Shown here: piece by piece, positions 38 to 30,790 of the stretch
Position numbering within the stretch: position 1 is the first letter of the stretch
Layout of the letters: each line of letters starts with the position of its first letter
Source: Fidelibacterota bacterium CG1_02_48_14
GTDB lineage: Bacteria; Fidelibacterota; UBA8477
NCBI GenBank assembly: GCA_001872685.1
Contig: MNWS01000016.1
Coordinates: forward strand, 1-33,208
Direction of reading: 5' to 3'
Length of the DNA: 33,208 nt
The notes under the pieces: generated by a model
Databases searched by the model: none
What the model was told of the DNA's origin: nothing
Seen by the model: only the letters and a program-made list of their open reading frames with translations
Translations under genes and position numbers: made by a program

Positions 38-478
38 CTAAAACAGGTGAAGCTGCTCATCATAAATTTTGACATACTTCTTTCCTTGACTCTCAACATA
101 CCGTTTGATCACCTCTTCATTCCCATATTGACCTACCGTATTCGCGTAATAACCACTCGTCCAAAAATTACCGCCCCAAAGCTCATGCTTGATCTCTGCG
201 TGTCTTGACAATATCAGACGGCCTAATATACTCTTTATCGTTCGCACTATCTTTTCAACCGAGAACACCGGTATACTCTGAACCAAAAAGTGTACATGGT
301 CTTCGTCTGTTCCAATTTCAATGAAATTTATCTCATATCGGTCACTTATTTCAAGACAGGTCTCCCGGATTGTTTGGCCAACCGGCGCACTGATCACCTT
401 GCGACGATACTTTACCGGGAATACTAGATGATACAGTAAAAGTGTTTTGTTGTGCCGTTTATGGACATGCTCACTCAT
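38..478 (-). CDS. tnpA: IS200/IS605 family transposase TnpA (HUH Y1 transposase)
   Basis: 146 aa; YHLVFPVKYRRKVI N-terminal motif, HUH motif in DEDHVHFLVQ, and FWTSGYYANTVG...VIKRYVESQGKKY C-terminus typical of IS200-type TnpA. Confidence 0.93.
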   Translation of the reverse strand: MSEHVHKRHNKTLLLYHLVFPVKYRRKVISAPVGQTIRETCLEISDRYEINFIEIGTDEDHVHFLVQSIPVFSVEKIVRTIKSILGRLILSRHAEIKHELWGGNFWTSGYYANTVGQYGNEEVIKRYVESQGKKYVKIYDEQLHLF

Positions 479-549: not shown

Positions 550-569
550 CCCCGAGGCAAGCCTCGAGG
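550..569. repeat. IS200/IS605-like end hairpin (CCCCGAGGCAAGCCTCGAGG), 5' side of tnpA
   Basis: Same architecture as 10-29 with a paired G-to-A / C-to-T substitution preserving the stem. Confidence 0.75.
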
Positions 570-655
570 AATTCTCTCGATTAAACAAGCAGAAGACTAA
601 ATTGTGAGTGCACTCATGCACTCGTCAATAACCCGCTTTTCCGGAAAATTTTGAA

Positions 656-1006
656 ATGACAAAACCGCGTATTTATACCATGAGCTTTGCGAGTGTCTAT
701 CCTCTCTATGTTGCCAAGGCAGAGAAAAAAGGACGAACAAAATCAGAGGTGGATGACATTATTCGGTGGCTGACCGGGTATAGTCACGATTCGTTTATAG
801 CGCAAGTGGACAACCAGACAGACATTGAGACCTTTTTTGCGGCAGCGCCACGACTCAATCCATCCCGGCGTTTGATTAAAGGGATGATATGTGGTGTCAG
901 GGTGGAAGAGATCGAAGAACCAACCATGCAGGAAATTCGCTATCTGGACAAGCTCATTGATGAGTTGGCTAAGGGGAAGGCAATGGAGAAAATTTTACGG
1001 ACTTGA
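656..1006 (+). CDS. DUF2200 family protein
   Basis: [38 protein letters not shown]...[48 protein letters not shown] is characteristic of this family. Confidence 0.9.
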
Positions 1007-1112
1007 TTTTTTGGTTTTTTTTACCGTTTTCGGGTACTGACGGATCAAGAAAATAGACACAAGAGTGAGGGGTTGCCTGTCCGGCTCAGACGGAGAGCTC
1101 GTGGCAACGGAA
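1002..1112 (+). repeat. Dispersed intergenic repeat, copy A
   Basis: Shares CTTGATTTTTTGGTT, TACTGACGGATCAAGAAAA and GGTTGCCT..GTCCGGCTCAGACG with the reverse complement of 29961-30235. Confidence 0.75.
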
Positions 1113-28279: not shown

Positions 28280-29725
28280 TTACTTTTCCGGAATCGTCAA
28301 CGCCACGAAAAAGTTTTCCCCTTCCCGCTGCATGAGAAATAACACGGTATCCCCGGATTTGTAGCCGGATAATGCGCGCTGGTAATCTTTCGTTGATGCA
28401 ACGGCATCCAGTTTTCTGACTGTCGGACCCATTTTTTCAATGAGCATGCCGACCTGGACATTTTTCTGCTGAGCTTCGCTTCCGGGCATCACGCTGGTTA
28501 CCAAAACACCCCTGCTGTCCTTGTCAAGTCCGTAGCGACTCACCTCTTTGGGCTCAAGATTTTGAACCTGCATTCCCAATGTCTCATCATTTTGTTGACG
28601 GGTGTCCGCTGCCAGGTTGTACTCCTCTGGGAATTCAGCCAGCTTGACTTTGATTTCCTTTTGTTTGCCCTCACGCAGCACCGTCAGAGTCACTTTATCT
28701 TCCGGATGTTTGGCTGCGATCAGGTTCATCAGGGTACGAGAATTTTTAACCGCCTCATTGTTCACTTTGAGAACCACATCCCCAACTGCCAGATCCGCAT
28801 TAGCCGCCGGACTGTCCTTTACAATTTCCCCGACCAATGCGCCATAAGCACGTTCAAGCTCCAGCGTCTTGGCCATGGCTTCATCGACATTTTGAATTTT
28901 CACACCCAGCCAGGCTCTGACGACTTTGCCTTTGGTACGGAGGTCACTCGTCACCCGATTGACCATCGTCACCGGAATAGCGAACCCTATCCCTTGATAC
29001 CCGCCACTTCTGGAAGCAATAGCGGTGTTAATGCCAACCAGTTCGCCATCCAGATTCACCAGCGGACCACCTGAATTTCCCGGATTAATGGCTGCATCAG
29101 TCTGGATAAAATTCTCATAATCCACCAGACCAACGGAGGAGCGCCCAATGGCACTGACAATACCTTGGGTAACCGTATGCGACAATTCGCTGCCGAAGGG
29201 GCTACCGATGGCGAGGACCCATTCGCCCACTCTCAACTTGTCAGAATTTCCAAGTTTAATGGGTTTTAGTTTCATCCCTTTCGCATCAATTTTTATGAGG
29301 GCGACATCGCTTTTGGGGTCCGTCCCTACAATTTCAGCATCCACAATTTTGCCTTCAAAAAATTGAACCTTAATATTTTCACCCTTTTCGATCACATGGT
29401 TATTTGTAACGATATAGCCGTCTGCATCAATGATTACGCCTGAACCAAGGCTGGTCGTTTTTAATTCACGGTTATTATCGGGTCCCCAAAACCAATAGAA
29501 TGGACTATCCTGGCTTGGGCCACGACCATCTCGATTGGATAACGCGGGGTGTTTCATCATGTGCTCACTGGTAATCGTTACGACAGAAGGTTGGACCTGC
29601 CCGGCGATTTGTGCGAAAGCATCACTGAGTGCTTTAGCCATATTGAGACCATCCGCATGTGCCAGCGATAATGTTGTAAAAAGCAAGCCAGCCACTAGTG
29701 CGAGGTGAGAATTGAATCGTTTCAT
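28280..29725 (-). CDS. DegP/HtrA (Do) family serine protease with PDZ domains
   Basis: Signal peptide; GYIVTNNHVIEKG (His), DVALIKID (Asp), NPGNSGGPLVNLDGELVGINTAI (Ser), two PDZ-like regions. Confidence 0.96.
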   Translation of the reverse strand: MKRFNSHLALVAGLLFTTLSLAHADGLNMAKALSDAFAQIAGQVQPSVVTITSEHMMKHPALSNRDGRGPSQDSPFYWFWGPDNNRELKTTSLGSGVIIDADGYIVTNNHVIEKGENIKVQFFEGKIVDAEIVGTDPKSDVALIKIDAKGMKLKPIKLGNSDKLRVGEWVLAIGSPFGSELSHTVTQGIVSAIGRSSVGLVDYENFIQTDAAINPGNSGGPLVNLDGELVGINTAIASRSGGYQGIGFAIPVTMVNRVTSDLRTKGKVVRAWLGVKIQNVDEAMAKTLELERAYGALVGEIVKDSPAANADLAVGDVVLKVNNEAVKNSRTLMNLIAAKHPEDKVTLTVLREGKQKEIKVKLAEFPEEYNLAADTRQQNDETLGMQVQNLEPKEVSRYGLDKDSRGVLVTSVMPGSEAQQKNVQVGMLIEKMGPTVRKLDAVASTKDYQRALSGYKSGDTVLFLMQREGENFFVALTIPEK

Positions 29726-29960
29726 TTATTGTGCTCCATTGTTGTTTTTCATACACGCTTTAATGCGAACGGATGGTAAAGGTTCACCCATTAAAAAACA
29801 AGAGACGGTCTGGAAAAAAGCGGCTTCCATGAGCGTCAAAATGCAGTCGTGGTTTTCATTGTCACGGGCTTTTGCGGGCGGATAGCAGAAAATAACAAAG
29901 TGGGGGTTTTCCAGGGGGGTCCTGTGGACCTACGAGGTAGCCGCCAACTCTTCCGTTCTT

Positions 29961-30235
29961 TTTTCTTGATCCGTCAGTAGCCGGAGGCACTAAAAAAGAA
30001 CCAAAAAATCAAGTCTGTAAAATCTTTCACCGATGTCGTTCAGCGCTTCCGCTACAGCAATTCGAACTCAGTCCCTAGCCGGACTTCAAACATGAATTGC
30101 TGTTTACGCTGCGGCGCTTCCGACTCTACCAGGAAAGATTTTAATGACGGGTTGAAACCGGCAGGTACGGTTTTTTTCTGTTACCACGAACACTTCGTCT
30201 GAGCCGGACAGTCGGGTTGTGAATAATAGGCAACC
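29961..30235 (-). repeat. Dispersed intergenic repeat, copy B
   Basis: Reverse complement shares several exact blocks with 1002-1112; contains nested inverted repeats at 30019-30142. Confidence 0.75.
30019..30142. repeat. Nested inverted repeat (outer AAAATCTTTC/GAAAGATTTT, inner ACAGCAATTC/GAATTGCTGT)
   Basis: Two sets of 10-bp perfect arms at 30019-30028/30133-30142 and 30054-30063/30094-30103. Confidence 0.75.
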
Positions 30236-30300
30236 AGAATGAGACAGGGCTTTAGCCCCGGCGAGCTGTTCGTGAGGTCAGGGTTAAAAATCGACTAAAT

Positions 30301-30361: not shown

Positions 30362-30790
30362 CTATTTAAACATTGCCTTGATTGAGCCCCACGTGTGTTT
30401 GGCACTGGAAATTTGGGATTCGATTGTAATCACACCGGAGTATTCGATGCTGCCATTTGCGTTGACAATTTTCAAACGGTAGTAATAGACACGGCCGGAT
30501 AATTTGGCGAAAACCGAATCATCCACATAGGTATAACCCGTGTTACTTCCCCGGGCATCCAAAAATCCCAAGCGATTGAAGGTCTGTCCATCCATGCTGC
30601 GTTGAATTTCATAACCCTGCAGGTTTTGCTCAGCGACACTGGTCCACTGAATGACAACCCGTGAGGTTTCAGAATAACCGCTAAAATCAATGATGGTTGC
30701 GCTACCGAACAGGCTGGCGATCATCAAGCAGTTCAATCCAATTGTGAGCAGGTTTTTCATAGGCGGAAGGTAGATTTTTCCATTTTTCAA
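30362..30790 (-). CDS. Small secreted protein with FN3-like / pre-CTD-like domain
   Basis: Signal peptide followed by VVIQWTSVAEQNLQGYEIQRSMDGQTFNRLGFLDARG...YTYVDDS...YYYRLKIVNANGSIEYSGVITIE. Confidence 0.7.
   Translation of the reverse strand: MKNGKIYLPPMKNLLTIGLNCLMIASLFGSATIIDFSGYSETSRVVIQWTSVAEQNLQGYEIQRSMDGQTFNRLGFLDARGSNTGYTYVDDSVFAKLSGRVYYYRLKIVNANGSIEYSGVITIESQISSAKHTWGSIKAMFK

Follow-up and report, generated by a model that had tools for sequence, protein, structure and literature searches.

We report that the large nested hairpin in the gap between the htrA-like gene and the next gene of the analyzed stretch is one copy of a small non-coding repeat scattered through many bacteria, mostly Bacteroidota. 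The invariant part of this repeat seems to fold into a pseudoknot held by a three-stranded helix. The repeat is best described as a non-autonomous, probably mobile element that has a folded body and a triplex-type pseudoknot head, and that may be recognized in a folded single-stranded form, either as RNA or as ssDNA. The window, meaning the whole stretch of DNA that was analyzed, comprises 33,208 nucleotides of contig MNWS01000016.1 from Fidelibacterota bacterium CG1_02_48_14 (GCA_001872685.1). It carries this full copy (copy B) as well as a partial one (copy A).

The initial annotation had described copy B as two concentric perfect 10-bp inverted repeats that resemble a structured RNA or MITE-like unit rather than random spacer. 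Both inverted repeats are present, perfect and nested, although their centers (30080.5 and 30078.5) coincide only to within 2 nt. The region from 29940 to 30240 folds more stably than dinucleotide shuffles on both strands, with z = -3.70 on the plus strand (0 of 100 shuffles as good) and z = -3.15 on the minus strand (1 of 100). The blocks said to be shared with copy A are also real, and they occur in inverted orientation. However, the extent originally assigned (29961-30235) cuts off the first bases of the conserved head and includes an adjacent repeat block, and the annotation missed the head with its pseudoknot and likely triple helix. The proposed interpretation is supported, and both halves of it may be true at once, because the unit behaves like a mobile element and its folded single strand is under constraint.

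Coordinates of the element and neighboring features in the window
Feature	Position	Strand	Description
Element core	29953..30159	+	Head plus hairpin body, as shared by full copies in the genus
Conserved head	29955..30013	+	Hairpin S1, linker and downstream hexamer
Predicted head hairpin S1	29955..30001	+	GTTCTTTTTT (29955-29964) pairs with AAAAAAGAAC (29992-30001); loop CTTGAT (29965-29970); extra 21-nt loop insert (29971-29991) in this lineage
Linker	30002..30007	+	CAAAAA, putative third strand over the S1 purine tract
Predicted pseudoknot stem S2, downstream strand	30008..30013	+	ATCAAG, pairs with the CTTGAT loop
Predicted body hairpin	30013..30148	+	Closing GTC/GAC (30013-30015/30146-30148); terminal stem 30070-30074/30081-30085; conserved unpaired GAACTC (30064-30069) and TTCAAACA (30085-30092)
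Outer stem of body	30019-30028/30133-30142	+	AAAATCTTTC and GAAAGATTTT
Inner stem of body	30054-30063/30094-30103	+	ACAGCAATTC and GAATTGCTGT
3' end of element	30146..30159	+	GACGGGTTGAAACC
Copy A	985..1066	-	Remnant of the head without the hairpin body
Blocks shared by copies B and A	29957-30007 with 1007-1057; 29993-30026 with 989-1022		Inverted orientation
Second repeat block	30176-30211 with 1077-1112		GTTACCACGA...TCTGAGCCGGACAG, inverted orientation; 3' of the body in copy B, upstream of the head in copy A
htrA-like protease gene	28280-29725	-	
Small gene	30362-30790	-	
DUF2200 gene	656-1006		Abutted by copy A
IS200-like Y1 transposase gene	38-478	-	About 500 bp from copy A
Palindrome	near 550-580		CCCCGAGGCAAGCCTCGAGG, may be the end of the Y1 transposase gene's element

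A search of the own genome (3.02 Mb, 277 contigs) with positions 29900-30300 revealed nine places, two of which are parts of copy A. Several lie at contig ends, as expected of a repeat that breaks assembly. Further copies are present in two sister species (genomes G001 and G002), whereas the other relatives searched with DNA gave none. When the head pattern was used to search 245 genomes of the phylum, one genome of the sister family (G007) was also found to carry a copy. Ten full copies from the genus align over 237 columns, and RNAalifold predicts 53 consensus pairs over the core, 12 of which have at least one copy where both sides are changed and the pair is kept. Orthologous copies upstream of htrA likewise differ by a compensatory change (CAATTCG/GAATTG versus CAAATCG/GATTTG). 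In addition, most copies in the window's own genome share a loop insert that G001 lacks, which may mean gene conversion between copies. The unpaired GAACTC and TTCAAACA motifs are conserved in the genus, and similar motifs recur elsewhere while the stem between them is replaced. An end similar to the 3' end of copy B recurs in other copies of the genus and, loosely, in Flavobacterium. However, other genomes have other bodies, and one genome can hold several.

In contrast, the head recurs throughout as a hairpin whose six-base loop CTTGAN is complementary to an NTCAAG hexamer placed a few bases downstream. Covariation supports this H-type pseudoknot. Among 68 distinct heads, the variable loop base and its partner are T-A in 44, A-T in 14, C-G in 5, and unpaired in 5. 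S1 is nearly invariant in the genus, but its innermost pair varies across genomes as T-A (36), G-C (15), C-G (12) and T-G (3).

The linker between the hairpin and the downstream hexamer is a C followed by A or G. Its length equals that of the S1 purine tract, counted from the second base of the tract to its G (5/5, 6/6, 7/7, 9/9), in 53 of 60 parsed heads, whereas re-dealing the linkers gives 23.5 on average and at most 36. Copy B itself fits this rule (tract 6, linker 6). Where the tract contains G, the linker tends to contain G at the mirrored place, as seen for AGAAAAG and GGAAAAG with CAAAAG (Pedobacter, Parabacteroides and further Bacteroidota genomes), for AAAAAGAAAG and ACAAAGAAAG with CAAAGAAAA (Segetibacter), and for ACAAGAAAAG with CAAAAGAAA (Arcicella). 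No shuffle of 10000 reaches the G statistic, although these shuffles do not correct for shared ancestry and heads with interior G come from only two genera (Segetibacter and Arcicella). There are also exceptions, in that one Segetibacter head (ACAAGAAAG) is off by one in length, one Arcicella head has an extra G, and heads with C at tract position 2 are not explained by the simple triplet code. Mirror order is not produced by direct or inverted duplication, but it is the order required by a major-groove triple helix. Thus, we infer from comparison alone that the linker lies as a third strand in the major groove of S1. On the minus strand of copy B this would be a pyrimidine third strand parallel to the purine strand (Y.RY, with U.A-U and C+.G-C), whereas on the plus strand it would be an antiparallel purine third strand (R.RY), which suits DNA rather than RNA. 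Departures from pairing do not favor either strand. On pairs predicted for both strands, A-C and G-T departures (read on the plus strand) number 22 and 17, so wobble use does not tell RNA on one strand from the other, or from ssDNA.

Heads occur across Bacteroidota, with scattered finds in other phyla. Forty-one genomes hold 1 to 31 exact-pattern heads each, and none were found with a reversed control pattern. A plasmid of Ilyobacter polytropus (Fusobacteriota) has eight places, of which one was read. Two viral contigs carry one copy each, whereas phage records gave no match.

Several lines of evidence suggest that the repeat is mobile. The site of copy B upstream of htrA is occupied in the window's own genome and in G001 but is a short spacer in G002, although this could also reflect a loss in G002. 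Copy A abuts the last codons of the DUF2200 gene and supplies its stop codon, whereas the orthologous genes in G001 and G002 end normally without it. In Flavobacterium sufflavum, Labilibacter sediminis and Arcicella rosea, near-identical copies sit in unrelated flanks. In Arcicella the unit is about 230-290 bp and is bounded by the inverted repeat AAACATGAGTCATCCCGAATTTT, whose 20-base core has 116 hits in the genome at up to three mismatches. Similar inverted ends are visible by eye in Labilibacter and Flavobacterium, and the core shared between Flavobacterium species has rather sharp ends (about 172 bp in the query). The domain left of the head in Labilibacter sediminis also occurs alone elsewhere in the loci examined, sometimes in inverted orientation, so the unit looks modular. 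However, 26 paired Arcicella copies show no target-site duplication (mean best shared length 1.15, against 1.04 for shuffled flanks), and no precise empty-site junction was obtained, as both Flavobacterium loci tested were rearranged on one side. Moreover, no terminal inverted repeat rises above background for the window's own copies. No parent transposon with the same ends was found among paired Arcicella ends, which were sought only 100-500 bp apart.

Of 67 heads, 64 lie outside ORFs of 100 codons or more, with ORFs called by length alone. The neighboring genes are convergent at 21 sites, divergent at 5 and tandem at 33, and both orientations occur within tandem sites (14 and 19). This fits insertion filtered by selection against broken promoters and argues against a cis-regulatory RNA tied to one gene. 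No protein family accompanies the heads. The broadest protein cluster near them (11 loci, 229 bp and more away) looks like a common surface or secretion-type protein and was judged to be background. In Parabacteroides distasonis, the element sits just after an HU-family gene in two paralogous loci of one genome.

Considering these findings, we are moderately confident that copy B is a member of a family of small, non-coding, non-autonomous mobile elements that occur mainly in Bacteroidota. We infer that the folded single strand, whether a transcript or ssDNA exposed during replication, is what an enzyme recognizes when the element is copied to new intergenic sites, and that bodies drift as long as they fold because mainly the head is read by sequence. 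No mobilizing enzyme or autonomous copy was found. More tentatively, the repeat might represent a class of mobile element spanning several phyla whose recognition signal is not a sequence site or a simple hairpin, but a triple-helix pseudoknot in single-stranded nucleic acid, and which is moved by an enzyme not yet known.

Other explanations appear less likely. The repeats might be expanded genes for trans-acting or dual-use non-coding RNAs that are transcribed from their own promoters, with the head serving as an RNA stability or protein-binding element. This possibility is consistent with the strong covariation, the conserved unpaired motifs, and a pyrimidine third strand on one strand as in known RNA triplex pseudoknots. 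However, we consider it unlikely because bodies differ wholly between and even within genomes, copy number varies from 1 to 31, copies are absent at orthologous sites in sister species, and G-U is not favored over A-C on either strand.

A cis-acting regulatory RNA or a bidirectional transcription terminator for flanking genes is more doubtful still. Copy B lies upstream of htrA in two species, convergent sites outnumber divergent ones, and Arcicella rosea copies carry a long, nearly perfect hairpin flanked by A and T runs that resembles a bidirectional terminator. However, orientation relative to transcription is random in tandem sites, neighboring genes are unrelated, and the terminator-like hairpin is not part of the conserved head and is absent from copy B. 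Similarly improbable is a REP/REPIN-type repeat moved by an IS200-like (Y1/RAYT) transposase, which also works on folded ssDNA. Y1_Tnp genes exist in the own genome, including the one near copy A, and in this genus the element is often next to other palindromic repeats such as TTGCCACGGGCTTTAGCCCGTGG, but Y1_Tnp was not found in three copy-rich genomes (31, 13 and 7 heads), although draft genomes could lack the gene, and no head lies within 1.5 kb of the 29 Y1 genes read in the others. A tyrosine-recombinase core site (an 11-6-11 palindrome resembling dif) does not predict the loop-to-downstream covariation.

The repeat is common in Bacteroidota genomes, yet Rfam 15 has no match to the element in the window or in sets of relatives (only tRNAs were found, in flanking DNA), and no description of it was found in the open papers searched, although an account in subscription papers or preprints cannot be excluded. 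Its recognition gives annotators a way to label many unexplained intergenic regions. If the head is indeed a triplex pseudoknot, it would be a bacterial example found through three-strand covariation and spread over several phyla.

Among known systems, bacterial MITEs such as BrickBuilt of Porphyromonas gingivalis (PMC4596501) and the IS982-derived MITE of a Cardinium strain (PMC9769881) are likewise short, non-coding, multicopy and intergenic, and the inverted terminal repeats in Arcicella may be a further similarity. For our repeat, however, no target duplication was seen in Arcicella and no parent transposon was found among Arcicella ends 100-500 bp apart, and it has a conserved internal pseudoknot and is spread over many genera and several phyla. 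Those two elements are described as restricted to one species or strain and, judging from their descriptions rather than from a sequence comparison, appear to be other elements. REP/REPIN repeats with RAYT or IS200-like transposases (PMC3733652, PMC6006769) are also intergenic and palindromic and possibly act as folded ssDNA, but our repeat is much longer and has a pseudoknot head, and a Y1 transposase appears to be neither required nor adjacent in the genomes examined. Triple-helix RNA pseudoknots such as that of telomerase RNA appear to share a hairpin whose loop pairs outside, with a pyrimidine third strand parallel to the purine strand as inferred for the minus strand of copy B, whereas the present case is found in an interspersed bacterial repeat and has no sequence relationship to them. 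Finally, the mirror symmetry of a purine tract recalls H-DNA (intramolecular triplex) mirror repeats, although here the symmetry is short (5-9 positions), combined with a hairpin and a second stem, and conserved between phyla.
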